Source: Rosistilla oblonga (GTDB lineage Bacteria > Planctomycetota > Planctomycetia > Pirellulales > Pirellulaceae). From it: a DNA stretch of 64,000 nt. Both the position numbers and the translations under genes were made by a program. Positions 1,935 through 29,600 of this stretch are shown here, piece by piece. A model generated the notes under the pieces. It was not told where the DNA came from. It saw only the letters and a list, made by a program, of their open reading frames with translations, and searched no databases. How positions within the stretch are numbered: position 1 is the first letter of the stretch; each line of letters begins with the position of its first letter. The DNA is taken from NCBI RefSeq assembly GCF_007751715.1, contig NZ_CP036292.1:62001-126000 (forward strand), read 5' to 3'.

Positions 1935-4900
1935 GTGACAATCATCCAACAAGGACTGCCAATGCATTCCATTCGCCCCCTCGGGGACTCGACATCGGGT
2001 GGCACCGACGAGGTTGCTGCGCGGTCGTCGGGTGATTTGTCGCGAAGCTGCCAACATCTGACACCCGACGAACAACACAAACTGTTGGAGCTTTGGAACC
2101 AGACCGAACATCGCTGGGATGATTCGCCGTGTTTGCATGAGTTGTTCACGGCGCAGTGCGAACGCACTCCCCAGGCGACTGCGGTGATCTACGGAGATCG
2201 GCAGATTACCTACGCGGAACTCGATGATCGGTCGCGTCGCGTCGCGTGTCGGTTGGTCGATTTGGGCATTGCCGCGGGGCAACCGGTAGCTGTTGTCGCC
2301 GATGGATCGCCCGACGCTTACGTTGGGCTGCTGGGAGTTCTGCGAGCGGGTGGTGCTTATCTGCCGATCGATCCCAAATTCCCCACCGATCGCATCGGCT
2401 TCTTTTTGGAAGACGCCGCGGTTGACGTGGTCGTCGGCGATTTGGGCCCCGCGTCTGTCGATGCGTTTCCCGATCTAACGATCATCCGTTGCGATGGTTT
2501 GCCCGACGGCAACGCCGATGACCTGCCGACCGTCTCGCCGCAAAACCTCGCCTATGTGCTGTTTACGTCGGGATCAACCGGCAGACCCAAAGGCGTGATG
2601 CTCAATCATCAAGGCCCTGTCAATACAGTTCGCGACATCAACCTGAGCTTCGAAGTCCAAGCGACCGATCGCGTGTTGGCGCTATCGGCTCTTGGGTTTG
2701 ATCTCTCGGTCTACGATCTGTTTGGTATGTTTGCGGTGGGTGGAGCGATCGTCTTGCCGACAGCCGACCAAATCCGCGATCCGGAGAGTTGGGCTGCGTT
2801 GATCGATCGACATCGCGTCACGATCTGGAATTCCGTCCCCGCGTTGATGGATATGTTGGTGACCTCGTTGGCCGACGCGGATCGCTTGGCCAGTCTGCGG
2901 CGTGTGATGCTCAGCGGCGACTGGATCCCGCTCGCATTACCGGCGCGTATTCGGCAATCCGCCCCGCAAGCGGAGCTGTTTTCGCTTGGTGGCAGCACCG
3001 AGGCATCGATCTGGTCGGTGATCTATCCGATCGGCAGCGTCGACCCCGCTTGGCGTAGCATTCCATACGGCAAACCGCTTCGCAATCAACGTTGTTACGT
3101 TCTCGATGCGGCACAAAAACGTTGCAAGATCGGTGAGGTGGGAGAGCTGTGTCTGGGAGGAGTTGGCGTCGCGCTAGGTTATGTGAACCGGCCCGATCTG
3201 ACTCAGGAACGTTTTATCGCCGATCCGTTTTCGCGCGGCGAGACGTTGTATCGTACCGGCGACCTGTGTCGTTATGGCGACGATGGAAATCTGGAATTCC
3301 TCGGTCGCACCGATCACCAGGTGAAGATCAATGGCTACCGAATTGGGCTCGGAGAGATCGAAGCCGAAACACTTCAATTGTCCGCCGTTCGCGAAGCGGT
3401 TGTGGTCGCGAGCGATGAGTCGGCTGGCACGCGTTTGATCGCTTATGTGGTTTTTGAAGCTGGGCAGCAACTGACCCTGGAACAACTGCAGTCGCGATTA
3501 AGCGATAGCCTTCCGAATTACATGTTGCCCGCGGCGCTAATTCCGCTGGACCGATTGCCGCTGACAGCCAATGGCAAGATCGATCGCAAGAGCTTGCCGT
3601 CGCCATCGGTCCACCGCGAACCGAGCCATTTGCAACAGCCCAGCAATCCGACCGAAGCGATCGTTTGCGAGATCCTTGCCGAACTGCTGCATCGCGATCA
3701 CATCGATCCACGCGACGGCTTCATTCCGCTCGGCGGAACGTCTCTGGTTGCCGTGGCGTTAGCCAGTCGGCTGAAGAAGGTTTTTGGCGTTCGCGTCGAC
3801 TACTGGCAGATTCTGGCAACTTCTCCCAACGCGATCGAGCTTGCTCAACAAATAGAAGCTGCGCCGCAGTCGGATCGAGTTGCTTCAAACGATCACGCGA
3901 CGATTGGCAACGAACCGATCGATCGCGCGCCGTTGTCGTATCAACAACAACAGTTGTGGGTCGAACATTTTCTGAAGTCGAACCGCGCTCGATACAACGT
4001 CCCGCTGGTATATGACTTGGGCGGCGACCTGGATCTGCTGGCGCTCCAGCAGGCGTTCACTCAAGTCATCGATCGCCACGCGATCCTCCGCACTCTGTAC
4101 GAACCAACCGCGGCGGGGCTGATCCAACGCGTGCTTGCACCAAGCGAGTTTTGTTTGCACGTTGTCGATCTGCAGTCGTTGCCCGATGCGACGCGTTGGC
4201 AAACGCTGGAACAGCAAACGCGGGAGTTCATCGCCCGGCCGTTCGAACTCGATCGAGAGCTCCCGATCCGGGCGACGCTGTTCCGCTTAACTCCCAGTGA
4301 ATCGCGACTGGTGCTGTCGGTTCATCACATCGCTTTTGATGGGCATTCGATCGATGTCTTGCAGCGGGATTTGGCTAGTTTCTACAACGAGATCGACCGC
4401 TGTGAGAGCGGTTCGCTTGCTGGCTTGCCGTATCAATACGCCAACTATGCAAACTGGCAACAGACACTTGAACAGGAGTCTTTTGACGATGCGGACCGCG
4501 ATTTTTGGCGAGCCCAGTTTGCCGACGACCCGCCACCGCTGAACCTGCCTTGCGATCCGTCCGACGCGGCCGAATCGGATGGCGATACGATCTCGTTGCA
4601 GATCGATAGCTGTCTGCTCGACGCGGCGCGACAGTTCTCGTCGAACCGCCAGACGACGCTGTTTGTCACGCTGTTGGCCGCGATCAAAGCAACGCTGTTT
4701 CGCTATACAGGGCAAGAGGATCTGGTCGTTGGATCGGCCGTGGCCGCGCGGCCCGATGCGGAGATGGAGGATCTGATCGGTTACTTCATCAACGTGTTGC
4801 CGCTGCGAACCCGATTCGCCGCCGACGGTTCGTTTGATGATTTGCACGCCAAGGTGCGAGACACCACGCTCTCGGCGATGGCACACCAAAACTATCCCTT

Positions 4901-7900
4901 GGAATTGCTCAAGCGGGAACTGCTCGCAGGGCAGGGGACCGGGGCAACTCCGTTTCAGGTGATGTTTGTTCTGGAGCACGAACCATCTGCGCTGACGCTG
5001 TCGGGAGTGCAGGCCCGCCGCGTGCCGATGGAAACCCAAACCGCGAAGTTCGATCTGTTGATCGCCGCCAGCGAGTCGGCTGATGCGCTGCGGATCGACC
5101 TTCAATACCGATGCAAAAGCTTCTGCCGGGAACGGATCGATCGCTTCGGCAAGCATTTTCAAACGCTGCTGGCCGCGGCTATCGATGCGCCGACAACCCC
5201 AGTCGATCGGATCGATATCCTGCCGGCTGCCGAACGGACGCGGCTGTTGAAGCAGTCCGTCGCAGCGGATGATCAAACGCCAAACGCGTGCGAAGCCGTT
5301 ACGAGCGATGGCGACGAAGCGAGTCCAACGCCATCGGTGATCCAGCCGTTCCAGGCTCAAGTCGCGAGCAATCCAGACCGCGAAGCGATTGCGTTTGTGG
5401 GGGATTCATTGACCTACGCGGAACTCGACAGTCGAGCCGCTGTTCTCGCGGCTCACCTGCGGCAGATGGAAGTTGGCCCCGATGTGCCAGTGGCGATCTG
5501 CATTCCGCGATCGTTGGAAATGATGGTCGCCGTTATCGCAGTGCTCAAAGCGGGCGGATGTTACGTCCCGATCGATCCGGCGTTGCCAGAGCATCGGCGA
5601 AAGCAGATCCTGGACGATTGCCGCGCCCCTGTACTGCTGACTCAAGCCGATTTGGCGAACGACTTGCTGCTCGACGCGACAGCGACCAAGCCGCTGTTGA
5701 TCGACGCGTTTGACTTCGGCGGCCAGTCGTTGCCAGCGGGCGAACTGCCCGACGTATCGAGTGAAAATCTGGCGTACATCCTCTATACGTCCGGTTCGAC
5801 GGGCCAGCCCAAAGGCGTCGCGATGCGTCACGGCGCGGTCGGGAATCTGATCTCCTGGCAATTAGAAAACTCGCAAGCCGACGCGTCGACAAAGACGTTG
5901 CAGTTTGCGTCGCTGGGATTTGATGTCTCGTTCCAGGAGATCTTTGCGACGCTCTGCAGCGGTGGTCGGCTGGAATTGGTTGGCGAGGATTTGCAACAGG
6001 ACCTGCATCGGTTGTGGAAGTTCATCGTCGATGCGCAGATCGGGCGGATCTTTGTTCCGTTTGTTGTGTTGCGAACGCTCTGCGAAATCGCGGGCGATTC
6101 GGCATCGCGATCGTCGCTGTGCGAAGTGATCACTGCCGGAGAGCAGTTGCAGATCACGCCGGCGGTGCGGAAGTTCTTTCAACAACAACCGGGCTGTCGG
6201 TTGTGGAATCACTATGGCCCGACCGAAACGCATGTTGCGACGGGATATTTAATGGCGGCCGATCCGAGCGAGTGGGCTGCGATCCCGCCGATCGGCAAAC
6301 CGATTGAAGGTTGCCAGGCCTTGATTCTCGACGACCACATGCAACCGGTGCCGCAGGGGATCGAGGGGGAACTGTACCTCGGCGGCTCCTGTTTGGCTCG
6401 CGGTTATTATCGAAACGCGGCGCTGACGCAGCAGCGATTTGTCAGCAATCCGTTTGGCCATTTGGCAACCGACCGCTTGTACCGTACCGGCGACCTCTGC
6501 CGTCTCAATTGGGATGGTGAAATCGAATTCATCCGTCGCAACGACGATCAGGTCAAACTGCGTGGCCATCGCGTGGAGCTGAGCGAGATCGAAACTGTAT
6601 TGAATCAACACGCCGACGTGAAACAAGCTGTCGTCTGTTACGACGCAAACGTCCTCGGCGGTCAGTTGGCCGCATACGTGTTGTGCGATTCGGCCGATAC
6701 GAGCATCAGCCAGCTGAAGAAGTTCCTCGAGTCGCGTTTGCCGGCATATATGTTGCCGAGTCGGTTCCACATCGTCGATGACGTTCCGAAAACCGCCAGC
6801 GGGAAGATCGATCGGAAACGGTTGCCGATGGTTGCGGTGACCGAGGGAGTTACGGAAACCGCGGCGGCGGCAAGTTCCGATCCCGACGATCCACTGATCG
6901 CACGCCTGCTGGAAATCTGGCGTTCGGTTTTGTCGACCGATGCGTTGGATGCCCACAGCAACTTCTTCGATTGCGGTGGCGACTCGCTGGCCGCTGCCAT
7001 ATTGTTCTCGCGCATGGAGAGCGAATTTGGCAAAGCGGTTTCGATTACGAAGTTGGTTGAATGTCCGACGGTCGCCGAGTTGGCTGATCTTTACCGACAG
7101 GACGACGACCGCGTCGAAGATTGTTGGAAGGGACTGTTGCGGATCGATCCACAACAAAAACATGCGGCGGAGCCTCCGCTGTTCTGCTTGCCGGGAATCG
7201 ACGGTCATCTGCTGAACTTCCGCGCATTGGCGACGGCGATTGGAAACGATCGACCCGTGTATGGGCTGCAGCCTTACGGGCTCGATGGTACGAGTTCGCC
7301 CTGCACATCGATCGAAGAGATCGCCGGTCGGCATGTCCAAGAGATCCGCAGGGTGATGCCCAGCGGGCCGTATCATTTGGCTGGGTTTTCGTTTGGTGGA
7401 GTTGTTGCGTTTGAGATCGCGCAACAATTGCGTCGGGCCGGTGAACAGGTCACGCTGGCGATCATCGACGCCTACACGGGGCTGCCCACCCCGGCGCCGC
7501 TGTTTCAGCGGTTCGCTTTCCATCTCCGCTTCGCCTGGCACTGCAAGGGACGCCAGTGTTGGCAATACCTTGGCGAACGCGTGACGGGCGTGAGCGCCGC
7601 GATCCAACACCGCTATGGCTGGATCACGATGGAGCAGCGGTTGGAACGCATCATCAACGCGACGGGGACCTACGCAAAAGTCGCCGCGACGAACATGACG
7701 GCGCTCGACGAATATCGCCCTCAATCGGCGGAAGGCCCCGCGACGCTGTACCGCGCCAAGTTCCGCGCCAACTGGCCCGGCCAAGATGTCTCCGATCCGC
7801 ACATGGGATGGGGCAAGGTCTTCGAAACATCCGACTTGGAAGTTGTCGAAGTCGAAGGCGCCCACGCCAACATGCTCTCCGAAGCGAAGCTGGCCGGATT

Positions 7901-7949
7901 GGTCGCTCATCTGCGGCAGACGCTCGCCCAGGACGACAACCAAGCGTAG
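1935..7949 (+). CDS. Dimodular NRPS A-PCP-C-A-PCP-TE, predicted Cys-Pro synthetase
   Basis: A 2004-residue nonribosomal peptide synthetase. Order: A1 (about 60-560, core YVLFTSGSTG), PCP1 (LGGTSL, Ser603), C (about 665-1110, HHIAFDG at 797), A2 (about 1135-1630, YILYTSGSTG), PCP2 (CGGDSL, Ser1684) and a type I TE (GFSFGG about 1816, Asp in IIDAY, His about 1977). Reading the specificity positions gives D256 L257 Y260 N299 M325 S327 L351 I359 W360 K for A1, identical to the cysteine code DLYNMSLIWK of yersiniabactin HMWP2. A2 gives D1330 V1331 Q1334 F1373 I1399 A1401 H1426 V1434 A1435 K, one residue from known proline codes. No Cy, E, MT or reductase domain is present, so a Cys-Pro dipeptide or its diketopiperazine is expected. 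The GTG at 1935 has GGGAAGG just upstream; ATG 1962, with AAGGA upstream, is an equally good start. Confidence 0.95.
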   Translation: MTIIQQGLPMHSIRPLGDSTSGGTDEVAARSSGDLSRSCQHLTPDEQHKLLELWNQTEHRWDDSPCLHELFTAQCERTPQATAVIYGDRQITYAELDDRSRRVACRLVDLGIAAGQPVAVVADGSPDAYVGLLGVLRAGGAYLPIDPKFPTDRIGFFLEDAAVDVVVGDLGPASVDAFPDLTIIRCDGLPDGNADDLPTVSPQNLAYVLFTSGSTGRPKGVMLNHQGPVNTVRDINLSFEVQATDRVLALSALGFDLSVYDLFGMFAVGGAIVLPTADQIRDPESWAALIDRHRVTIWNSVPALMDMLVTSLADADRLASLRRVMLSGDWIPLALPARIRQSAPQAELFSLGGSTEASIWSVIYPIGSVDPAWRSIPYGKPLRNQRCYVLDAAQKRCKIGEVGELCLGGVGVALGYVNRPDLTQERFIADPFSRGETLYRTGDLCRYGDDGNLEFLGRTDHQVKINGYRIGLGEIEAETLQLSAVREAVVVASDESAGTRLIAYVVFEAGQQLTLEQLQSRLSDSLPNYMLPAALIPLDRLPLTANGKIDRKSLPSPSVHREPSHLQQPSNPTEAIVCEILAELLHRDHIDPRDGFIPLGGTSLVAVALASRLKKVFGVRVDYWQILATSPNAIELAQQIEAAPQSDRVASNDHATIGNEPIDRAPLSYQQQQLWVEHFLKSNRARYNVPLVYDLGGDLDLLALQQAFTQVIDRHAILRTLYEPTAAGLIQRVLAPSEFCLHVVDLQSLPDATRWQTLEQQTREFIARPFELDRELPIRATLFRLTPSESRLVLSVHHIAFDGHSIDVLQRDLASFYNEIDRCESGSLAGLPYQYANYANWQQTLEQESFDDADRDFWRAQFADDPPPLNLPCDPSDAAESDGDTISLQIDSCLLDAARQFSSNRQTTLFVTLLAAIKATLFRYTGQEDLVVGSAVAARPDAEMEDLIGYFINVLPLRTRFAADGSFDDLHAKVRDTTLSAMAHQNYPLELLKRELLAGQGTGATPFQVMFVLEHEPSALTLSGVQARRVPMETQTAKFDLLIAASESADALRIDLQYRCKSFCRERIDRFGKHFQTLLAAAIDAPTTPVDRIDILPAAERTRLLKQSVAADDQTPNACEAVTSDGDEASPTPSVIQPFQAQVASNPDREAIAFVGDSLTYAELDSRAAVLAAHLRQMEVGPDVPVAICIPRSLEMMVAVIAVLKAGGCYVPIDPALPEHRRKQILDDCRAPVLLTQADLANDLLLDATATKPLLIDAFDFGGQSLPAGELPDVSSENLAYILYTSGSTGQPKGVAMRHGAVGNLISWQLENSQADASTKTLQFASLGFDVSFQEIFATLCSGGRLELVGEDLQQDLHRLWKFIVDAQIGRIFVPFVVLRTLCEIAGDSASRSSLCEVITAGEQLQITPAVRKFFQQQPGCRLWNHYGPTETHVATGYLMAADPSEWAAIPPIGKPIEGCQALILDDHMQPVPQGIEGELYLGGSCLARGYYRNAALTQQRFVSNPFGHLATDRLYRTGDLCRLNWDGEIEFIRRNDDQVKLRGHRVELSEIETVLNQHADVKQAVVCYDANVLGGQLAAYVLCDSADTSISQLKKFLESRLPAYMLPSRFHIVDDVPKTASGKIDRKRLPMVAVTEGVTETAAAASSDPDDPLIARLLEIWRSVLSTDALDAHSNFFDCGGDSLAAAILFSRMESEFGKAVSITKLVECPTVAELADLYRQDDDRVEDCWKGLLRIDPQQKHAAEPPLFCLPGIDGHLLNFRALATAIGNDRPVYGLQPYGLDGTSSPCTSIEEIAGRHVQEIRRVMPSGPYHLAGFSFGGVVAFEIAQQLRRAGEQVTLAIIDAYTGLPTPAPLFQRFAFHLRFAWHCKGRQCWQYLGERVTGVSAAIQHRYGWITMEQRLERIINATGTYAKVAATNMTALDEYRPQSAEGPATLYRAKFRANWPGQDVSDPHMGWGKVFETSDLEVVEVEGAHANMLSEAKLAGLVAHLRQTLAQDDNQA

Positions 7950-8067: not shown

Positions 8068-8112
8068 AAAAAAAAACACCGCCTGAAACGCAAAGGTTTC
8101 AGACGGTGTTTT
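8068..8112 (-). terminator. Intrinsic terminator of the tRNA-Ser gene (bidirectional stem)
   Basis: The stem CACCGCCTGAAAC / GTTTCAGACGGTG (8077-8089 with 8096-8108) has one mismatch and a 6-base loop. Read on the minus strand it is followed by nine T residues, 9 bases after the tRNA end. On the plus strand the tail is only TTTTC, so it could also weakly end NRPS transcription about 130 bases past its stop. Confidence 0.85.
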
Positions 8113-8120
8113 CGTCAAAG

Positions 8121-8202: not shown

Positions 8203-8461
8203 TCGACCCGGAATTGATAACGTATCGGCCGACAACCGTCAAGCAGGATCGAGCGGCGGTTTGGATTTGCGTGCCAAAGTCGCAGCATTTTGCGGGACTT
8301 TTCCCCAACTCATGTTTTCGGGGGGCCAGCCGTTTCCGCGTTGCTAGCGATTGCCGGTCGGTTTTGATTCGCATGGGTTCGTCGATCGGTTACGATTGAA
8401 CGCTACCCCGCCGGTCTCTCTTTGGCCGCTCCCCGCACGTACGTCGCAGCATCGAGTGAAC

Positions 8462-10732
8462 ATGAAATACGCTTTTTTTCAATTGCTGGCATTTCTCGGA
8501 GTTTCAATCGGAGCGGCTTTCGCCCAAGATGCCGCCGCGCCAGCTGATGCTCCCGCCGCGAACGCTTCCCCCGACGCAGCGGTCAGCGAAGCGGCGGTCG
8601 ATCCGGAATCGGACCCGCAGGCCGAGGCGATCGTTCGCCAATTGCGGCCCTCGCTGGTCACGATTCGTGTGAAGGGACGCGATGGGCAACAGCGTGGGCT
8701 GGGCTCGGGCTTCATCGTCGACGCCGAGGGCTTGATCGCGACGAATCTGCATGTAATCAGCGAAGGACGCCGATTTTCAGTCGAAACGGCTGACGGTCAG
8801 TCATTAAAAGTCTTGGCGGTCGAAGCGTCCGACAGCACGCACGATCTGGCGTTGGTCCGCGTCGAGCTGCAGGATACGAAACTTGTTCCGCTGCAATTGG
8901 CCGCCGCCGATTCGATCGCTCAGGGAGCGACGGTGATGGCGCTCGGGAATCCGTTGGGGCTGGAGTACAGCGTCGTGCAAGGGATCGTTTCAGCGATCCG
9001 CGATGTCGACGATCGTCAGATGATTCAGGTGGCGATGCCGATCGAATTCGGCAACAGCGGCGGACCGCTTGTCGATGCGAAGGGGCAGGTCCACGGGATC
9101 ATTAATATGAAGAGCGCGATCCAAGAACGGGTCGGTTTTGCGATTCCGATCGCCCGACTGCACGAGTTGCGAGCGCGGCCGAATCCCGTCGTGATCGATC
9201 GCTGGGCGCGGTTGGGGCGGCTGGACGAAAAACGCTGGACGCCACAAGCGGGAGCCGATTGGCAGCACAGCAGCGGGATGATCCAGGTTCGCGGCAGTGG
9301 TGGCGGAATCGGCGGTCGGTCGCTGTGCGTGTCGTCGCTCGCCATTCCAGAGGAACCGTTTGAGATCTCGGTCAGCGTCCGTCTGCACGATGAAACCGGC
9401 GCGGCGGGGCTGATCTTTCACCGCGACGCGAAGGACCGACACTACGGGTTTTATCCCAGCAATGGGCGGCTGCGGTTGAGTTGCTTTCTGGGCCCTTCGG
9501 TCTTCTCTTGGCAGGTGCTGGCCGAAGTCGACTCGCCCGATTTTCTGCCGGGCCAATGGAATCGTTTGAAGGTTCGCATCGACGATCAGGGAATCAAGTG
9601 TTACGTCAACGGCAAGCTGGCGATCGAATCCAACGATACTCAATTGACCGGCGGCAACGCTGGCTTGGCGACTTTTCGGTCGACCTCGGCCGACTTCCGG
9701 CAGTTCCGCGTCGGCGATATTTCGGAAGACGATCAACTGGCCGGGCCGGCTCAAGATTGGTTCGCTGCGACGGCGTCCGATCCTCAGAAGCTCGATGCCG
9801 TTTCGCAAAGTGAGCTCGAGATGTTGGCGGACAGCCGCGACGCCAGCGTGTTGGAACTGGCGCGTCGTGCGATTCAATTACAGCGTCAAGCGAAACAGAT
9901 GCAAAAGCTGGCCGAAGATGTTCGCCGGGTCCCGGTGTTGCGAGCGTTGGGCGATCTGCTGACCGGAGAGGACGAAGACGATCTGTTGCGCGGGGCGCTG
10001 TTGGTCGCGTCGTTGGACAATCCCGATCTCGATATCCAAGCCTATCTCGATCGGATCGATCAGATGGCTGGCGAGATCCGCGAGGGGCTCGCTGAAGACG
10101 CCGATCCGGCGGCGCGGCTGAAACAACTCGATCGCTATCTGTTCGAAGAGAACGGTTTTCACGGCGGCCGCGACGAATATTATCATCCCGCCAACAGCCA
10201 TCTGAATCGTGTGATCGACGATCGCGAAGGGCTTCCGATCACGATGGCGATCCTGTACATCGAACTCGGTCGTCGGCTGGGGCTGGAGATCGAAGGGGTC
10301 GGATTGCCGGGGCACTTTGTCGTCCGGCATATCGATGGAGAAAGCGAAGGGCAGTTGATCGATGTCTTTGAACGGGGCGAGCGAATGTCGCGCGCCGACG
10401 CGGCTCGGATCGTGCTGCAGTTTTCCGGCCGAATGCTCGAGGGGAACGATCTTCGCCCGCAGACGACCGAAGATATTTTGATCCGCGTGCTGCGGAACCT
10501 GATGGGATCGGCGGGGCGATTGCGCGACGCCGAAGCGGTGTTGCGGTATATCGATGCCTTGGTCGCGCTGCGTCCCGACGATGGCGAATACCGGATGATG
10601 CGAGCCGCGGCGCGGCATCAGACCGATCGCGATCATGCGGCGTTGGAAGATCTTCAGTGGTTGATCCAGAACCAACCGCCGGGGATCGACATCCACGAAG
10701 TCCAAGAGATGCGTGACTTCTTGCTGAAGTAG
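8462..10732 (+). CDS. Secreted HtrA-like serine protease fused to a laminin-G/DUF1080-like and a SirB1-type domain
   Basis: A 756-residue protein. The ATG at 8462 opens a clear signal peptide (MKYAFFQLLAFLGVSIGAAFA); the frame continues upstream but without a secretory start. An Ala/Pro linker leads to a trypsin-like domain (about 45-230) with the triad visible as TNLHVIS (His), STHDLAL (Asp) and EFGNSGGPL (Ser). No PDZ domain follows. Residues about 235-425 look like a concanavalin/DUF1080-type beta sandwich (GLIFHRDAKDRHYGFY, NRLKVRIDDQGIKCYVNGK). Residues about 470-756 are a SirB1/transglutaminase-like domain (EYYHPANSHLNRVIDDREG, GLPGHFVVRH) with a TPR-like tail; I see no obvious catalytic Cys in it. 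It probably acts in periplasmic protein quality control; substrates are unknown. Confidence 0.9.
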   Translation: MKYAFFQLLAFLGVSIGAAFAQDAAAPADAPAANASPDAAVSEAAVDPESDPQAEAIVRQLRPSLVTIRVKGRDGQQRGLGSGFIVDAEGLIATNLHVISEGRRFSVETADGQSLKVLAVEASDSTHDLALVRVELQDTKLVPLQLAAADSIAQGATVMALGNPLGLEYSVVQGIVSAIRDVDDRQMIQVAMPIEFGNSGGPLVDAKGQVHGIINMKSAIQERVGFAIPIARLHELRARPNPVVIDRWARLGRLDEKRWTPQAGADWQHSSGMIQVRGSGGGIGGRSLCVSSLAIPEEPFEISVSVRLHDETGAAGLIFHRDAKDRHYGFYPSNGRLRLSCFLGPSVFSWQVLAEVDSPDFLPGQWNRLKVRIDDQGIKCYVNGKLAIESNDTQLTGGNAGLATFRSTSADFRQFRVGDISEDDQLAGPAQDWFAATASDPQKLDAVSQSELEMLADSRDASVLELARRAIQLQRQAKQMQKLAEDVRRVPVLRALGDLLTGEDEDDLLRGALLVASLDNPDLDIQAYLDRIDQMAGEIREGLAEDADPAARLKQLDRYLFEENGFHGGRDEYYHPANSHLNRVIDDREGLPITMAILYIELGRRLGLEIEGVGLPGHFVVRHIDGESEGQLIDVFERGERMSRADAARIVLQFSGRMLEGNDLRPQTTEDILIRVLRNLMGSAGRLRDAEAVLRYIDALVALRPDDGEYRMMRAAARHQTDRDHAALEDLQWLIQNQPPGIDIHEVQEMRDFLLK

Positions 10733-11569: not shown

Positions 11570-13072
11570 ATGTCATCGAATGCAACGCGATTTTTCTTTG
11601 GTTGTCCAGTATTGCCGTTGCTTTCTCGCGTCCTGTTCTTCGCCAGTTGCCTCCTGCTGACGTCGGTCGCTAGCGCCGCCCCCAACGTCTTGTTCATCGT
11701 CGCCGACGATTTGAACTGTGCGATCAGCCCCTACGGCGATCCCGTTGCCAAGACGCCGAATTTGGAACGCCTTGCCAAACGTGGGCTGACGTTCACGCGG
11801 ACTTATTGCCAACAAGCGGTCTGCAATCCATCGCGGTCTTCGTTTTTGACGGGGCTGCGTCCCGATACGGTCAAAGTCGACGATCTTCGCAAGTATTTCC
11901 GCAATACGGCGGCCGGTGGCAGCACGCTGGTCACGCTCCCCCAGCACTTCAAGAACCACGGATATTTCTGTCAGAACATCGGCAAGATGTTTCACAATAT
12001 GGGCGACACACAAGACCGCCGCTCGTGGTCGATCGATGAAGTCCTGTTTCGCGGCACCCACGCGGCCGACACGATTTACAACAACACGCCCAGCGGTGGC
12101 AAGCCGCGGCAATTTAAGGCTCCGGCGACCGAAGCTCACGACGTTCCCGATACCGCCTATCGCGACGGGCAGATCGCCAATCTGGCGGCGGCGATGATTC
12201 GCGATCACGCCACCAGCGACCAACCGTTTTTCCTGGCGGTTGGATTCTGGCGGCCCCACCTGCCGTTTGTCGCTCCGCGGCGGTACTGGGATTTATATGA
12301 CGCCGACACGATCCCGATGCCCGACCCCGCGGCGGCGCCAGAAGATGTGCCAGCGATCGCGATGCATCCCTCCTCCGAAATCCGCGGCTACGGCGGTGTG
12401 CCGAAAGATCGTCCGCTCAGCGAGGCGGAGGTTCGGCATCTGCGCCACGGCTATTACGCATCGATCAGTTTCATCGACGCGCAGGTCGGCGAGATCTTGG
12501 ACGCTTTGGACGCAAGCGGTCGAGCCGACGACACCATCGTTGTCTTCACGTCCGACCACGGCTTCCACATCGGCGAACGCACGCTATGGGGAAAGACCTC
12601 CAATTTTGAACTCGACGCCCGCGTGCCGCTGATCGTTGTCGCCCCACGGCATCCGGCCAGCCAAGGCAAATCGACGCCAGCTCTAGCTGAACTCATCGAC
12701 CTCTATCCAACTCTCGCCCAGCTCGCTGGCATCTCCGACGACCTCCCGCGGCGACTGGAAGGGACCAGTTTGGCGCCGATCTTCGAAGACCCCAAAGCTT
12801 CGGTCAAACAAGCTGCTTTCACTCAACATCAACAACCCTTTTACGGCAATCCCAGCAACTGGAAGGCTTGGGGATGTTCGATGCGAACCGATCGCTGGCG
12901 GTACACCCGTTGGACGGCGATCGACAGCGGCGACGTGATCGCGCGGGAACTTTACGATCACGACCACGATCCGCTGGAAACCACCAATCTCGCCGCCGAT
13001 CGCGAACACGAGAAAATGATCGCGGAATTTGATCAAACATTAGCCAATGCGTTTCCAGAGCGACAACAATAG
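11570..13072 (+). CDS. Secreted sulfatase, iduronate-2-sulfatase-like
   Basis: A 500-residue sulfatase. A signal peptide (about 1-37, cut near ASA-AP) is followed by the metal-binding start NVLFIVADDLNC and the active-site motif CNPSR (Cys85, converted to formylglycine in this family). Later family features are visible: PFFLAVGFWRPHLPF, the TSDHGFHIGE metal/substrate loop and WGKTSNFELDARVPLIV, which together resemble iduronate-2-sulfatases. It hydrolyses sulfate esters from glycans in the periplasm or outside the cell. It precedes a VCBS-sialidase protein on the same strand by about 115 bases and may share its glycan substrate. It would need an anaerobic- or FGE-type maturase encoded elsewhere. 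Confidence 0.95.
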   Translation: MSSNATRFFFGCPVLPLLSRVLFFASCLLLTSVASAAPNVLFIVADDLNCAISPYGDPVAKTPNLERLAKRGLTFTRTYCQQAVCNPSRSSFLTGLRPDTVKVDDLRKYFRNTAAGGSTLVTLPQHFKNHGYFCQNIGKMFHNMGDTQDRRSWSIDEVLFRGTHAADTIYNNTPSGGKPRQFKAPATEAHDVPDTAYRDGQIANLAAAMIRDHATSDQPFFLAVGFWRPHLPFVAPRRYWDLYDADTIPMPDPAAAPEDVPAIAMHPSSEIRGYGGVPKDRPLSEAEVRHLRHGYYASISFIDAQVGEILDALDASGRADDTIVVFTSDHGFHIGERTLWGKTSNFELDARVPLIVVAPRHPASQGKSTPALAELIDLYPTLAQLAGISDDLPRRLEGTSLAPIFEDPKASVKQAAFTQHQQPFYGNPSNWKAWGCSMRTDRWRYTRWTAIDSGDVIARELYDHDHDPLETTNLAADREHEKMIAEFDQTLANAFPERQQ

Positions 13073-13193
13073 ACGGTTTCCGCTTTTGGAAGCTTCCCAC
13101 CCCTACCTGTTTGCGACGGTGCCACGCCGACGCTCCACCCCACGTGACGATCCAACCCAACCGCCATCGACAATTACTTCCGAGGTGATGAAA

Positions 13194-16100
13194 GTGACAC
13201 GAATCCTAACCCGGCTGCCCCTCGTTGCAGCGCTGATGTTTGCCAGTTGCCTGACGGCTCAAGAGAGCGACTGGAAACTGTTGCCACTGGAATACAACAA
13301 CCCCGGCCTGAAGGTCGATCTGGGCGTTGGGCTGTGGGCCTGGCCGATGCCGATGGATTACGACGGTGACGGTGATATCGACTTGTTGGTGTCGTGTCCC
13401 GACAAACCCTCCAACGGCGTCTATTACTTCGAGAATCCGTCGCAAGACCCAGCTGAAAAGATGCCGGTCTTTCTCCCCGGAGTTCACGTTGGCAAGACTT
13501 CGCACAACATGCAGGTCAGCTACGTCGATGGCAAGCCGCGGATCCTGCATACCCGTTTTGAATACCCTCGCGACGAAGCGACGGGTGCGTTTGCCTTCGA
13601 CAAGAGAAAGCAGATCTATCCTAAGGGGAACGTCCACGAAAACAACGTCCGCGGAAACATGTGGCGGTACGTCGATTACGATGGCGACGGTGATCACGAC
13701 ATCGTCGTCGGCGCCGGCGATTGGTCGGAATACGTGTGGGACAACGCTTACGATCGCAATGGCCTTTGGAAGAACGGGCGGCTGCGTGGTTACGTCTACT
13801 TGATCGAGAACGCTGGCAGCGATCAGGAGCCGCAGTATTCCGACAAGCCTGTCAAATTGCAGGCTGGTGGCGGCGATATCGACGTCTACGGCTGGCCCTC
13901 GCCCAACTTCGCCGACTTCGATGGCGATGGCGATCTCGACTTGTTGTGCGGTGAATTCCTCGACGGCTTCACCTACTTCGAGAACATCGGCACGCGGACA
14001 GAGCCAGAATACGCTGCCGGCAGCAAGTTGGCCGACGATACCGGCAAGCCGCTGGTGATGGATCTGCAGATGATTACTCCCACCGCGTTCGATTGGGATG
14101 GCGATGGCGATCTCGATTTGATCGTCGGCGATGAAGATGGACGCGTCGCGCTTGTCGAAAACAGTGGCCAGATGCGCGGCAGCAAGCCGGTCTTCTTGGC
14201 TCCCGTCTACTTTCAACAGGAAGCCGATACGCTGAAGTTTGGTGCGTTGGCGACCCCCGCAGTCTACGACTGGGATGGCGATGGCGACGAGGACATCCTG
14301 TGTGGCAACACGGCGGGATACATCGGTCTGTTCGAAAATCTTGGCGCCGGCGAGAACGGAGCGCCAAAGTGGGCCGCTCCTAAACTGCTGGAAGCGAAGC
14401 AGAGTGAAGCCGCTGACAGTTCGCAGGTCTTCCGAGTCCTCGCTGGCAGCGACGGTTCGATCCAGGGGCCGTGCGAAGCGAAGTGGGGTTACACGACGCT
14501 TTCGGTTGCCGATTGGGATGGCGATCAAGATCCCGACGTCATCTACAACTCGATCCTCTCTCGCGTCGGCGTGTTGCGGAACGACGGTGGCGTGTTGATC
14601 GACACTGCGTTGGAGACCGGACAACGCGAAGCTCCGCCAAGATGGTATTGGTGGCAGACGTTGGCGTCGGACACGTTGACCCAGTGGCGGACGACTCCAT
14701 TTGCCATCGATTTCGATGCCGACGGTAGCGTCGATTTGGTGATGCTGGATCAAGAAGGATTCCTGACGCTGCGACGCGGTGGCAAAGCTGCCGAACGCAT
14801 TTTTGTCGACGAGAACAATCAACCGTTGCAGTTGAACACCAGGTCGTGTGGCAGTTCGGGACGCGTCAAACTGACGGTTGTCGACTGGGACGGCGACGGG
14901 CGATTGGACGTGCTGGTCAACTCGCAGAACGCTCTTTGGTACCGCAACTGCGAAGATCGCGATGGCAAGATCGTACTGAAGAAGGTCGGCAATCTGGCGC
15001 GGCGGAACGTCGCTGGGCACACATCCAGCCCCGCGGTCTGCGACTTCAATCGCGACGGCAAACCCGATCTGTTGATCGGTGCCGAAAACGGACGACTCTA
15101 TTTCGCCGACCACAACGACTGCATTGCCTATCCCGAGGAGAAGCTGGTGGCTGCAAAACCTAAGGCGATCGAGGAGCCCAAATTCCCTGGTTTTGTCAGT
15201 GAGGAATTCGTCTACACCAAAGCCAGTTTCCCGCAGTGCCATGCGTCGACGATCTGCGAGACCAATCGTGGGTTGGTGGCCGCTTGGTTCGGTGGAACGC
15301 GAGAGAAGGATAAAGACGTTGGCATCTGGGTCAGCTATCACGATGGAAACGGATGGTCGTCACCGAGGGAATGGGCCAACGGCGTGCAGCACGATGGGCT
15401 TCGGTATCCCTGCTGGAACCCCGTCCTCTACCAATCGCCTGGAGATGGGCCGACGTTGCTGTTCTTCAAAGTTGGCCCCGACCCACAAACTTGGTGGGGC
15501 GAGGTGATGGTCAGTTACGACCGTGGGCGTTCGTTTGTCGAGCGCAAACGATTGCCCGAAGGGATCGATGGCCCGGTCCGTTGCAAGCCGATCCTGTTGG
15601 CCGATGGCAAGACGCTGCTGTCGGGTTCGTCGACCGAATACGACGGTTGGACGATCCACTTCGAATCGACAACGCTGACCGATGGGCAGCCCAGCGGAAC
15701 CTGGAAACGTGTCGGCCCGATCGAACCGGCGACCGATTTCAACGCGATCCAGCCGACGATCCTGCAGCACGCCGATGGGCGTTTGCAGGTGCTGTGCCGG
15801 ACCAAGGAGAGCGTGATCGTCAGCAGCTTCTCCGACGACGAGGGTGCTTCGTGGTCGAAGCTGGAACCGATCGACATGCCGAATCCGAACTCGGGAATCG
15901 ACGTCGTGACACTCAAGGATGGCCGTCAATTGATGATCTACAATCACCTTGGCAGCGGCAAAACCGGCTGGGGGCGACGCGGTCTGCTGAACCTGGCGAT
16001 CTCCGACGACGGCCTGGCGTGGCATAAGGTCGGCGTTGTCGAACGCGATGAAAAGGGTGAATTCAGCTACCCCGCGATCATCCAATCCGACGACGGTTTG

Positions 16101-16211
16101 GTCCACATCAGCTACACCTGGAAGCGTCAGCGGATCAAACATGTGGTCGTCGATCCGGCAAAGATCCTTGCCGGAAGCCTGTTGAGCAAAGACAATTGGG
16201 ATGCAGAGTGA
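13194..16211 (+). CDS. Secreted VCBS/FG-GAP repeat protein fused to a BNR sialidase-like domain
   Basis: About 1005 residues with an N-terminal signal peptide (VTRILTRLPLVAALMFASC). I count nine calcium-binding FG-GAP/VCBS motifs of the type DxDxDGDxD, for example DYDGDGDIDLLV, DFDGDGDLDLLC, DWDGDGDLDLIV and DFNRDGKPDLLI, which form a beta-propeller over about residues 20-640. From about 665 to the end is a sialidase-family propeller with Asp boxes (SYDRGRSF, SDDEGASW) and an opening CHASTICETNRGLVAAWFGG. It likely binds or cleaves a surface glycan; the catalytic class is not certain. A perfect GAGGTGA at 13182-13188 sits 5 bases before GTG 13194, whereas ATG 13188 would overlap it, so GTG is chosen; the difference is two residues. 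Confidence 0.92.
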   Translation: MTRILTRLPLVAALMFASCLTAQESDWKLLPLEYNNPGLKVDLGVGLWAWPMPMDYDGDGDIDLLVSCPDKPSNGVYYFENPSQDPAEKMPVFLPGVHVGKTSHNMQVSYVDGKPRILHTRFEYPRDEATGAFAFDKRKQIYPKGNVHENNVRGNMWRYVDYDGDGDHDIVVGAGDWSEYVWDNAYDRNGLWKNGRLRGYVYLIENAGSDQEPQYSDKPVKLQAGGGDIDVYGWPSPNFADFDGDGDLDLLCGEFLDGFTYFENIGTRTEPEYAAGSKLADDTGKPLVMDLQMITPTAFDWDGDGDLDLIVGDEDGRVALVENSGQMRGSKPVFLAPVYFQQEADTLKFGALATPAVYDWDGDGDEDILCGNTAGYIGLFENLGAGENGAPKWAAPKLLEAKQSEAADSSQVFRVLAGSDGSIQGPCEAKWGYTTLSVADWDGDQDPDVIYNSILSRVGVLRNDGGVLIDTALETGQREAPPRWYWWQTLASDTLTQWRTTPFAIDFDADGSVDLVMLDQEGFLTLRRGGKAAERIFVDENNQPLQLNTRSCGSSGRVKLTVVDWDGDGRLDVLVNSQNALWYRNCEDRDGKIVLKKVGNLARRNVAGHTSSPAVCDFNRDGKPDLLIGAENGRLYFADHNDCIAYPEEKLVAAKPKAIEEPKFPGFVSEEFVYTKASFPQCHASTICETNRGLVAAWFGGTREKDKDVGIWVSYHDGNGWSSPREWANGVQHDGLRYPCWNPVLYQSPGDGPTLLFFKVGPDPQTWWGEVMVSYDRGRSFVERKRLPEGIDGPVRCKPILLADGKTLLSGSSTEYDGWTIHFESTTLTDGQPSGTWKRVGPIEPATDFNAIQPTILQHADGRLQVLCRTKESVIVSSFSDDEGASWSKLEPIDMPNPNSGIDVVTLKDGRQLMIYNHLGSGKTGWGRRGLLNLAISDDGLAWHKVGVVERDEKGEFSYPAIIQSDDGLVHISYTWKRQRIKHVVVDPAKILAGSLLSKDNWDAE

Positions 16212-23693: not shown

Positions 23694-26600
23694 CTACGAC
23701 GTCACTTTTTTTTTTGCGTCGTCGCTGAAGATCGCTTCATCGAGATAGTCGACGATTCCTCGCAGCGTGCGAAGCGTCGTCAACTTCTCCAGTTCCAACG
23801 TATCTTCCAGCGATTCGCCGTCGCCAGCGAGCTGCAGGACTTCGGCGAGGTTCCCCAGGATCTCGACCCGTTTGATCGAATCGATTCCGAGATCGCCTTC
23901 GAGGTCGGCTTCCATGTCGAGCATGTCGACGGGGTAACCGGTCCGGTCGGCGACCAGTTCCAGCAACGCTTCTTCGGCTTGTTGAATCGACGCGGGAGCC
24001 GCTTGGTCGTTGTCGGTCGGCGCGGCGGCGGCGGCTGGTTCGGCAACTGCGGGCGATGGCGCGGCGGGTGTCGGTTCCGGTGCAGCGGCTGGCGCCGGTG
24101 CGGGAGCGGGAGCAGCGGCAGCTGGTGGTGCAGCGGCGACTGGCGCGGCGGCAGGGATCGCCGGTGCGGGCTTCGCTGCGTGGCCGTTTTCGCCGTTGTG
24201 GCTGATCGCCGCGTAGGTCGGCTGCGGTCGCTGAGCGATCTGCGGTTGAGCGGCTTGAGGGAGCATGCCGTTGTCGGATTCGGGAGCTTCCCCTTGCAAG
24301 TACGTGACCATCACATCGCGTTGCGTTTGCAAGAACTGACGCATCAGTTGTTGGTAGCCAAGCATCACGGCTGTTGCTTCGTCATGATACGTGGCGGCGG
24401 GTGTTTGAGCCGATCCGTTGGTTTCTTGTGGAAGACGATTCGTAGCGGAGGATGTTAGTTGCATGGTGTTTTGATCAGATGGAACAACGGGAGTTGGAGC
24501 TGTCGGTTTTTGCGGCCGCTGTGGCGCGGCAGATGCTGCTGGCGGCAGCGGCTTCGTTTCACGAGGTTTTTGTGTTGGGACTTGTTGTGGTTTTTGCAGC
24601 TCCGCTGCGACGGCAATCGGTTTTGCCGTTGCCGCAGCCGCCGATGGTTTGGCGGCGGGTTCCTGTTTCGCAGGTTGGCCGTTTCCTGTGGCGGCCGGCC
24701 GAGGTTTGTCGGCGTCGGGATGACGCTGCCCCAGATAATGTTTTTCCGGTTCGTTGATCGGGCGGTTCCGCATCCCGTTGACCATCCATGCGTTCTTAGG
24801 ATAGTCGGGATGGCCGATCTGTGAATTCAATTTTCGCAGGTCGATGCGTTGCGGAGCACGTGCGGCAAACAGAGCCGAAGGCCGGATGCCGTCGACACCC
24901 GCGGTGATCAAGCGGCCCAGCGTGTGAACCAGTTGAGACAACGAATCGCGACCGCGTCGATCGATCGACACGGCGGTGTGCGGTTGGTCTTTCAACGTTT
25001 GCCCGACCAGACCGGTCAACGCGCTGCCGGGGCCGACTTCGATAAACGTTCGCACACCGTCGGCGTGCATCGCGGCAACCTGTTGACGGAAGCGAACCGG
25101 CGATGCGAGGTGCGTCTTGAGCGTGGCGAGCATCTCTGCCGGAGCGGCCGGATGTTTGGCGGCGGTTGTGTTGCTGTAGACCGTTCGCTGTGGAGCTTTC
25201 CATGCAAGCGAATCGAGCTTCTCGGCAAAGGCGGTTCCAGCGGCGGCGACTTGCGGTGAATGGAAGGCACACGAGACGTCCAACTTGACGACTCGCATTC
25301 CGGCGGCCGTCAGTTTTTCGATCGCGCTGTCGACCGCTGCGGTCGGACCGGAGATCACGATCTGCTGCGGCGAGTTGTCGTTGGCGATCGTGATCGCTTC
25401 GGCCAATCCGGCGGCGGATAGCTCTTTTTGAATCGTGGCTGCGTCGGCGGAAACCGCCGCCATCGCACCGGCAAAACCGCCGTCGGGCTGCGGTTGAGCG
25501 GCCGATCGCATCGCGTCGCCACGCGCCGCGGCAAGGCTCAGCAGATCGTCGTACGTCAACGCTTCGGCGGCTGCCACGGCGACTAGTTCGCCAAAGCTGT
25601 GACCGCCGACGACATCGGCGCGAATCCCCAACGCATCGATCACCTGCAGCGCGGCCCACGATGTGGCGGCGAGTGCCGGTTGAGCGACCGCTGTGTCGGC
25701 CAAGGCCTTGCGGTTGGCATCGCGATCGGCGTCGGTGAACGGCGATGGCGGATAGATCAGTTGAGCAAATCGACTGGCAAAATGTTCGTCGTAGACCGCT
25801 GCGGCATGATCGACCGCAGCGTGTGCTGCGGGGAATGCGAGCAGCAGTTCGGCGAGCATGTCGGGATATTGTGCCCCTTGGCCGGGGAACAGCAGCGCGA
25901 CTTTGCCCGCGGTCTCGGGTTCGATCTCGGCCAGGTAGATGCCGCGCGGATCGGAGATCGCCAACGGCGTCGCTTCACATTTTTTGATAGCGATCGCAAG
26001 ATGATCGGTCAGCTGGCCCAGGTCTTTGGCAACGATTGCCGCCACGCATTCGGCGGCGGTTGTCTTTTCAAAGGCATCGGCCAGCGAAGCCGCCAGTTCG
26101 GGCAGTTCCGGCATCGCGCCGGCGGCAAGCCAGGCCTGGATCCGCGTTAGTTCGGTTCGCAACGCGGCGGGATTCGCCGCTCGCCAGACCAGCAATTCGG
26201 CGGGCCAGTGGTCGCGAGCAACCTCGGGCGGATTGGCGAAGTCTTCGGTATATTCTTCCAAGACCAAGTGGACGTTGGTGCCACCAAATCCGAACGCGCT
26301 GACTCCGGCGCGACGCGGGTGGTCTTCGCCATTGATCCAGGGACGCGTCTCGGTGTTCAAGTACAGCCCAGTGTTAGGGAAGTCGATCGCGGGGCTGGGC
26401 GTTTCGACGAGCGTTGGGGGCAGGGTCTTGGTGTGCAAGGCCATCGCGGCTTTGATCAGACCCGCGACGCCGGCGGCACACTTGCTGTGACCGATCATCG
26501 ATTTGACGCTGCCGATCGCGACCGATTGGCGGCGGGCTCCCGATTCGTCCAGGACGGTCGCGACCGAAGTCGCTTCGGTCCGATCGCCGACAACGGTTCC

Positions 26601-29600
26601 GGTTCCATGGGCTTCGACCAAACCGATCGACGATGGTTCGACGCGGGCTTGTTCGTAGGCGCGTCGCAGGGCGCGGATCTGTCCGGTGGCGTTGGGGGCG
26701 GTCAGCCCTTTGTCCTTGCCGTCGCTGCTGCTGCCGATGCCGCGAATCACCGCGTAGATCTTGTCGCCGTCGCGCTCGGCATCCGCCAAACGCTTCAGCA
26801 TCACGATCCCAAGGCCTTCGCTGAGCACGATCCCGTCGGCTTCGGCGTCGAACGGCCGGCAGCGTCCCTGCGGCGAGAGGGCGTGCGTTTTGCTGAAGGC
26901 CATAAAGGCGTAAGGCGTTTGCACGGTGTCGGCACCCATCGCAAACGCGACGTCGGTGGTTCCCAGTTGCAATTCGCGGATGCAGGCGTGGACGGCGGCC
27001 AGCGACGAGGCGCAAGCGGCGTCCAGAGCGTAGTTCGATCCGCCCAGATTAAACCGATTGGCGACGCGGCCGACGGCGACGTTCATCAAAATCCCGGGGA
27101 ACGAATCTTCGGTCCATTCGGGCAGATGGTTTTTCACCGCGTCGCAAATCGCTTGTCCTGAGACCGGCAGTTCGGGAGCGGTTTCGATGATCGGCAGCGA
27201 GCTGCGGATGCCATACATCACGCCCATCGGGCTGCCACCGCCGCCGATGCCCAGCACCGCACATGCTGTCTCGCGGTTGAACGGTCGGCGATCGTAACCG
27301 CCGTCGGACAGCGTTCGCTTCATCGATTCCAGCAGCAACAATTGCAGCGGTTCGATCGACGCGATGCTTCGCGGCGTGATCCCGTATTCGAATGGATTAA
27401 AGACTTGGTCGGTCAGGAAGCCGCCCCACTTGCTGACGATCTTGTCGGGAGCTCGCGGGTCGGGATCGTAGAACAACGTCCAGTCCCAGTGCGAATCGCG
27501 AGGGACTTCGGTGACGGCGTAGTGTTTGTTAAGGATGTTCTCCCAGTACTGCGCCAGTTCGTTGCCGCCGGGATACATCGCACTCATCCCAACGATCGCG
27601 ATATCGCAGGGGGGCGGCGCGTCGACCGAATCGGTGAAGCTTGGTTTGGGAGCGACGTTCAAATTCGCCGAGGCTTGTTGCAGTCGTTGCGTTCCGGTTT
27701 GGCTGACATCGGCGTGCAGCTGGCCGATCGTCGTCACGCTGTCGCGGAGCGCGGCGACTTGGCCGACCATGTACATTCCGCGTTCGTATTGTTTGTCGCT
27801 GGAGACGTTTTCCAGTTTGCTTTTGCCACCATCGCTGGGCGTCGATCGCTCGATTCCCTTGCTGGCGACGCGCAGCCGCCCGATGTTCATCCATTCCAGT
27901 TCGCGTGTGATCTCGTCGGCGGTTTTGCCTTCGCCAGCCAGTCGTCGCCGCTCGCGATCGAACAGGTCGCGGTAAGGGGTTCGGATGCAGCGGATCGCGT
28001 GGCCGGGACCGGTTTCCAACAGGACGGTGTCGTGGCTGCGGATCGCTTCCTCTTGAAAGCGTGGCACGATCGCGCCCGCTTCGACAGCTTCTTTGGTGAA
28101 CAGATAGGCCGAACCCATCAGCACGCCAACTTTGGCGCCCAGTTGCGACAGGCGTCCGGCGACCGATGTTGCCATCGCGGCGGAGAGGCCATCGTGGATG
28201 CCGCCGGCGAACAGCAGATGCAGCTTGGAGATTTCTCTGGGGTTCTTTTTGGCAAATGCTTCGAGCACGACCAGCAAGCTTTCCCACAACACGAAGCTGC
28301 TGCGCGGTCCGACGTGTCCGCCGCACTCGCGGCCTTCGAAGACGAACCGCCGTGCACCGTCGCGGAGGAACATTTCCAGCAGCCCCGGCGAAGGAGCGTG
28401 CAGGTAGGTCGGGATGTCGATCGCTTCGAGCTCTTTGGCTTGGTCGGGGCGTCCACCAGCGATCAAGGCAACTGGTGGCCGGTGCTCTCGGATCGCAGCG
28501 ATCTGTTCGGTGCGGATCTCGGGCGGCAGAAAGCCCAGCAGGCCGGCACCCCAACCGCGATCTCCCAGCTTGGCTCGCGTGGCTGCCAGGATTTTGGAGG
28601 CTTCGGGGCCGCGCATCAGAGCCAGCGCGATCAACGGCAGGCCTCCTTCGCTGGCGACCGCTTCGGCAAACTCCGCCGTATCGCTGACTCGCGTCATCGG
28701 TCCCTGAACGATTGGCAACCCGATGCCGTGGCTGGCGGCGAGCGGTCCGTCGGCGTCCAACGGATTCACTTCGGCTGCCGCTTGGATGTTCTCGCGCGAT
28801 TGATCGATGATGGCGGTGACGGTGCCGCGAACGTCGACGCAGCGCTGGGCCAGCCCCGCGGCAAAGGCGAGGTCTTGGCCGGCGATCAAGACGCGCGGGT
28901 CATCGTTTGCGGCGACTGCTTGTTCGACGCCGTCGATCCAGGCTTGTGCAAACGATTGGTCGGGGGCGGATTCCTGTTTGGCTAACAGGTTCAGTTCGAG
29001 TTCGCGCAGTTGTTGCAGGAGCGCTGCGCTTGGCGGCGCGGCAAATCGGAAGCATCGCCCCAGCGATTCGCCCAGCAAATGAGTCTGGCTGCCATCGTAG
29101 GAACGGACCCAGGTGGCGGCTGCGGGGGAGAGTGGCGATGCTTGGGCCAAGAGGACCTGAGAATCGATGACCACGCCGCGGGCGCCGGCCGCTTCGCAAG
29201 CGGCTGCGGTGTGTGGGCCGATTCCACCTTGGGCGTAGGCGGGCAGACGCTGGCGACGCGCGTCGTCCAATCGGGCCCAACGCTGCAGCAGCAAGAAGGT
29301 GGTTTCGCTGGCGACCCAGCCTCCCGCTTCGTTCCCCTTGAGGATCACGCCATCAAGCGGCAGGCCGATCGCTTCTTGCAGCGCCTCGCTGCGCGTAATC
29401 TCGGCTAGCAGGCGGACTTGGTTCCCCAGCCGGTTGCGCAGCGAAGTGACTCGCTGAGCTGTGATTTCACCAGCCAGGATCACTGCATCGAGCTGCGACG
29501 CGTGTTGCGCTAGCTGTTCGAGGTGAACCGGTTCGGTGTTTGGACCGATCCGCGCGGCAAAAGGGTTGTTTGTGAAGCGAACCAATCGCTCGATAGAAGC

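Follow-up and report, generated by a model that had tools for sequence, protein, structure and literature searches.

The synthetase gene and the operon that it closes

The window, a 64,000-nucleotide stretch of the Rosistilla oblonga genome (contig NZ_CP036292.1, positions 62,001 to 126,000), contains near its start the gene of a two-module nonribosomal peptide synthetase (NRPS), placed at the end of a set of exopolysaccharide (EPS) genes. Open reading frames were called by simple rules and by homology. The single open frame of the NRPS (nt 1935–7949, plus strand, as for all features of the operon given below) encodes 2004 aa, starts with a GTG codon that is aligned with the ATG of two congeners, and has no internal stop. 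A Pfam search found two AMP-binding, one Condensation, two PP-binding and one Thioesterase match, in the order adenylation, carrier, condensation, adenylation, carrier, thioesterase (A-T-C-A-T-TE).

The first module consists of the adenylation domain A1 (nt 2145–3578) and the carrier domain T1 (nt 3648–3854), whose serine (nt 3741–3743) lies in the motif LGGTSL, where the other orthologues have LGGNSL. It is followed by the condensation domain (nt 3924–5249), with HHIAFDG at nt 4323–4343, then by A2 (nt 5337–6818) and by T2 (nt 6903–7091), with a GGDSL motif and its serine at nt 6984–6986. The terminal thioesterase (nt 7173–7919) has a serine in GFSFGG (nt 7389–7391), and an aspartate (nt 7467–7469) and a histidine (nt 7863–7865) that were assigned by conservation. 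Both carrier serines, the HHIAFDG motif (of the form HHxxxDG), GFSFGG and the conserved aspartate and histidine were intact in all six orthologues, the window protein included. With A, T, C and TE domains and intact catalytic motifs, the gene is, as judged from its sequence, a type I modular NRPS, and peptide formation is predicted.

Neither an epimerisation-type second Condensation match nor a reductase was found in the domain search of the NRPS. In all six proteins the single C domain carries HHIAFDG and not DxxxxD, which places them outside the thiazoline-type NRPSs; no thiazoline is expected, because the cyclization domain is lacking. The Pfam matches and this motif bear out what an earlier note, written from the sequence alone, had said of the domains: no cyclization, epimerase or reductase domain, and a single terminal TE.

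The gene order, read 5′ to 3′, is flippase, a 434-aa multi-span membrane protein, two GT4-family glycosyltransferases, chain-length protein and, last, the NRPS. The flippase is MATE-like and of Wzx type, matching PF01943 at 8e-11. The second glycosyltransferase (Pfam Glycos_transf_1/Glyco_transf_4) has its C-terminal part at nt 1–378 of the window, while its gene begins 848 bases upstream (L047:19152-20378); it is 77–87% identical in the other five genomes. The chain-length gene (nt 375–1913) overlaps it by 4 bases and encodes a Wzz/Wzc-type protein without kinase domain, which matches PF02706 at cut-off and TIGR03007 at 1e-28 and is 67–80% identical in the other five genomes. Candidate genes for an initiating transferase and an outer-membrane (Wza-type) exporter lie outside the block, there being six Bac_transf and four Poly_export genes elsewhere in the genome, as well as genes for one phosphopantetheinyl transferase of AcpS size and one of Sfp size.

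The last five genes of the operon lie close together or overlap. Between the chain-length gene and the NRPS gene there are 21 bases in the window and 21–24 bases within its genus, and in the second genus (g45) the two meet in a TAATG or similar overlap. A terminator-like hairpin at nt 8072–8113 (fold z-score −3.84) closes the operon. The six-gene block was found in the same order in six of six genomes from two genera, and nothing outside it was conserved in the stretches compared. With its flippase, chain-length protein and glycosyltransferases the set qualifies as an EPS operon, of which the NRPS is, on gene content and order, the terminal member, the type being probably Wzx/Wzy. The earlier note had put the NRPS directly behind an EPS chain-length gene, as it indeed is, and had called this placement unusual. 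The placement is real, but the remark understated it: the NRPS is fixed in the operon in all seven genomes that carry the flippase.

Directly past the terminator (nt 8351–10732, plus strand) lies a gene whose product combines a trypsin-like protease with a transglutaminase-like domain and tetratricopeptide repeats, with no counterpart in the orthologous loci read.

Predicted substrates of the two adenylation domains

The ten code positions were read against the GrsA core sequence by pairwise and multiple alignment; the core sequence used is identical to that of PDB 1amu except for one residue at its edge. The codes so obtained, DLYNMSLIWK for A1 and DVQFIAHVAK for A2, are exactly those of the earlier note. 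Across the six orthologues they read DL[Y/F]NMSLIWK and DVQF[IVM]AHV[AV]K, over proteins that are 72–73% identical to the window NRPS in the two congeners and 57–59% identical in three genomes of the second genus. The ratio of nonsynonymous to synonymous substitution rates (dN/dS) is 0.11–0.21, and the gene is therefore under purifying selection. Pairwise alignment had given shifted codes in three orthologues (DLYNVLLIWK, DLFNVLLIWK and DVQFMAHV-K), which proved to be artefacts: a motif read-out and the multiple alignment restored the MLSGDW motif and the A/V site.

In a quick tree of 95 A domains, for which SH-like approximate likelihood ratio test (SH-aLRT) values were the only support calculated, A1 fell inside a cysteine-code clade with other DL[YF]N-SLIW domains (SH-aLRT 99), and A2 inside a proline clade of DVQF-AHV domains (SH-aLRT 99). 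A survey of signature sequences from 2025 lists DLYNMSLIWK as a cysteine code and gives Val236 together with Gln239 as a hallmark of proline domains (PMC12283262). By code class and clade A1 thus counts as Cys-activating, and by Val236/Gln239 and clade A2 counts as Pro-activating. Cys and then Pro, the assignment already made in the earlier note and now backed by code, phylogeny and conservation, are predicted with high confidence.

A one-module form and the distribution of the system

A third genus of the same family (genome G097) has an operon of flippase, polymerase-type protein, chain-length protein and an 894-aa A-T-TE protein. The A domain of the latter has the code DLYNMSLIWK, identical to that of A1, and is 46–49% identical to A1-T1. 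Its flippase is 50% identical to that of the window operon and its chain-length protein 39–40%, whereas the polymerase-type protein, which matches PF04932, has no detectable similarity to the 434-aa protein of the window operon. The chain-length and NRPS genes overlap by 4 bases (ATGA). The TEs of G097 and of the six orthologues form one clade (ultrafast bootstrap 98, SH-aLRT 93). Adjoining it, in divergent orientation, are genes for a glycosyltransferase, a heptose-kinase-like GHMP kinase, a nucleotidyltransferase fused to a GmhB-like phosphatase, and an epimerase; given these neighbours, the G097 locus is a polysaccharide locus too. Between G097 and the six genomes, then, the polymerase and the glycosyltransferases differ, whereas the flippase, the chain-length protein and the Cys NRPS stay together.

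At a threshold of E≤1e-60 the flippase was found in 7 of 241 genomes of the family, exactly the seven with an EPS-linked Cys NRPS. Under a hypergeometric test this complete overlap has p ~1e-13 if genomes are counted and ~2e-5 if genera are, neither value being corrected for relatedness. The polymerase-like protein, at 70% identity or more, is present in the six genomes only. Its distant relatives sit in EPS loci of other genera (G013, G105, G087, G198), in which no similarity to the NRPS was seen in the 20 kb read. Taken together, the co-occurrence and the gene order make it probable, as far as sequence comparison goes, that the NRPS is functionally part of the polysaccharide pathway.

Several candidates for further members were set aside. 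Those of G004 (L059) and G103 (L058) are 32–35% matches and not orthologues: in the former, an A-T-C-A(Pro)-T-TE-like protein, the A1 code is degenerate, and the latter is a different assembly line. Proteins of the phylum with a Cys code, or similar to that of L086 (G504, G565, G263, G311, G358, G487, G413, G020, G113, G130), belong to larger assembly lines or had no EPS genes in the stretches read. A search of named genomes returned general actinobacterial and Bacillota NRPSs only, and a plasmid search with the A-T-TE protein returned general NRPSs only. The G004 frame (L059, 5696–11656) is of some interest in itself, as a two-module protein of similar length with a Pro code in the final module and a first A domain whose degenerate code gives no usual substrate prediction.

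Other genes in the window also encode assembly-line enzymes. On the minus strand, nt 40828–46143 encode a single-module NRPS (1771 aa, C-A-T-TE) whose A domain is interrupted by an inserted methyltransferase domain, and nt 23694–29726 encode a 2010-aa polyketide- or polyunsaturated-fatty-acid-synthase-like protein with a nitronate-monooxygenase-type domain, a ketosynthase, an acyltransferase and a carrier domain. A further NRPS (G000:C1:7048063-7052046), some 1800 aa long and with a code of Gly type (DILQ-G--WK), is widely conserved, with relatives in many genomes of the family (L022, L025, L027, L029, L036). A gene that joins FG-GAP repeats to a BNR (sialidase-like) domain (nt 13047–16211, plus strand) neighbours a sulfatase gene (nt 11570–13072).

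Proposed attachment to a glycan, its rivals and known systems

Of the domains of the six NRPS orthologues, the TE ranks among the best conserved. A lone A(Cys)-T-TE protein that only hydrolysed its product would waste ATP, so that enzymes of this TE family most likely either hand their aminoacyl group on to an acceptor or build an oligomer. As the genes that always accompany the NRPS are those of the flippase and the chain-length protein, the likeliest acceptor is a lipid-linked glycan. In the route that we propose, A1 would load L-Cys onto T1 and A2 would load L-Pro onto T2, the C domain would join Cys to Pro, and the dipeptide would reach the TE. The TE would pass it to an acceptor in the polysaccharide pathway, for which a hydroxyl or amine group on a lipid-linked oligosaccharide is the likeliest candidate, and the dedicated flippase would then export the glycan bearing Cys-Pro. 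The product would be a thiol-bearing polysaccharide, apt for disulfide cross-linking or metal binding. The substrates actually used, transfer rather than hydrolysis, the identity of the acceptor and the function of the thiol are what we infer beyond the sequence itself.

That an NRPS seated in an EPS operon hands Cys-Pro through its TE to an acceptor of the pathway is the best explanation of the data as a whole, and we give it an even chance of being right. For covalent attachment to the glycan our confidence stays just short of even. The most specific version is still more tentative: here the NRPS would build Cys in its one-module form or Cys-Pro in its two-module form, and the TE would transfer it to the lipid-linked repeat unit before export by the dedicated flippase, yielding a disulfide-cross-linkable matrix or holdfast. 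Several observations weigh against such a transfer route. The system is present in only three genera, so that two or three events may account for the association, and the protein in the position of the polymerase (434 aa, hydrophobic, multi-span) has no Pfam match. The TE of Pks13, among the small number of solved TEs that can be aligned with that of the window over the full length, is only weakly similar to it, and part of this similarity reflects the common TE fold. By analogy, Pro as second residue would favour uncatalysed release of a diketopiperazine, in competition with transfer, and flippases of the MOP family can export small molecules as well.

In the main rival, which we consider rather unlikely, the NRPS would yield a small molecule that stays unattached, either linear Cys-Pro or cyclo(Cys-Pro), freed by the TE or by cyclising spontaneously. 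It would serve as a thiol, metal ligand or signal, and the NRPS gene would merely be co-transcribed with the EPS genes. An A-T-C-A-T-TE architecture is enough to make a dipeptide; in the gramicidin system dipeptidyl-Pro thioesters, there D-Phe-Pro, cyclise uncatalysed (PMC3759424); and a MATE-like flippase could export Cys-Pro. Such a product would leave unaccounted for the strict linkage of the NRPS to the Wzx/Wzz operon with its exclusive flippase, a G097 form that activates Cys alone yet keeps its TE, and the strong conservation of a TE that diketopiperazine release would not need. The earlier note had expected Cys-Pro, cyclo(Cys-Pro) or an oligomer as metal binder or redox buffer. Nothing found here points that way, although such a product stays among the rivals; apart from the EPS flippase no peptide exporter travels with the NRPS, nor does any tailoring or metal-related gene.

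An iterative TE that makes a cyclic or linear oligomer, such as cyclo(Cys-Pro)2 or, from the G097 protein, a Cys dimer, is improbable. It would relieve the one-module A(Cys)-T-TE protein of its futility, and EntF, which has an iterative TE, is a distant relative; the EntF match, however, covers only part of the window TE, no tailoring gene accompanies the NRPS, and the EPS operon would be left unexplained. Misleading codes, the residues used being others, such as a substituted form of proline or a different small amino acid, are quite improbable. The codes are predictions, and at position 331 A2 carries Ala instead of the Val of the commonest Pro code; among the orthologues, though, this site varies between Ala and Val, A2 groups with DVQF-AHV domains, and the A1 code is nearly fixed in seven genomes, lies in the Cys clade and agrees with published code lists. 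We give least credit to a coincidental proximity of the NRPS to the EPS genes, without any link in function: against the at least four other condensation-domain genes of the genome stand a block kept in six genomes, the same pair in another genus, overlapping genes and the exclusive flippase.

The chemistry of the NRPS is ordinary; what is unusual is that, in one-module and two-module forms, it holds a constant position in a polysaccharide operon alongside a matched flippase. A literature search that covered few subscription papers found no Cys-Pro NRPS and no EPS modified by an NRPS. An NRPS is usually taken to make a free small molecule. Here one is fixed in a polysaccharide operon with its own flippase, and its cysteine-only counterpart occupies the equivalent position in a related genus, which suggests that these bacteria may attach Cys, a chemical cross-linker, to their slime. 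Attachment of the peptide to the glycan, if it occurs, would explain how a bacterium could make a surface polymer that bears thiols and can be cross-linked or bind metal, and would amount to a genetic route to thiolated bacterial polysaccharides. The locus would then be a small gene set for testing where the thiols of bacterial sheaths and holdfasts come from, and possibly for making thiolated polysaccharides.

Among known systems, AusA-type synthetases (A-T-C-A-T-R, aureusimine) resemble the window NRPS in the A-T-C-A-T order with no C domain in the first module. They make Val-Tyr/Phe products and end in a reductase (R), whereas the window NRPS ends in a TE, is predicted to make Cys-Pro and sits in an EPS operon. 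The AusA-type family gave the second-best NCBIfam score, at 939.6 bits against a cut-off of 2500, which leaves the NRPS outside it. The Cys A domains of yersiniabactin, pyochelin and bacillamide-type modules share with A1 the code class DL[YF]N-[LM]-SLIWK and the motif GG[AS]TE-SIW; the window NRPS differs from those modules in having no cyclization domain and Cys as first residue.

In the Dlt system for D-alanylation of teichoic acids, an A domain and a carrier activate an amino acid for a surface polymer. There the A and carrier proteins are separate and an MBOAT transferase is used, none of which occurs in the window system. The Leptothrix sheath polymer contains a Cys-bearing peptide part, and no NRPS has been reported for it in the literature searched. 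This sheath (“thiopeptidoglycan”), with its thiol-cross-linked polysaccharide fibres, is a model for the product proposed here, chemically defined in Leptothrix and predicted from genes here. It is a glycoconjugate whose thiols cross-link nanofibrils (PMC8264430). For the release step a parallel is mycobacterial Pks13, whose terminal TE moves mycolic precursors rather than a dipeptide and releases its product onto polyols, preferably trehalose (PMC9210659); it thus delivers an acyl chain to a sugar, as the TE of the window NRPS may do.

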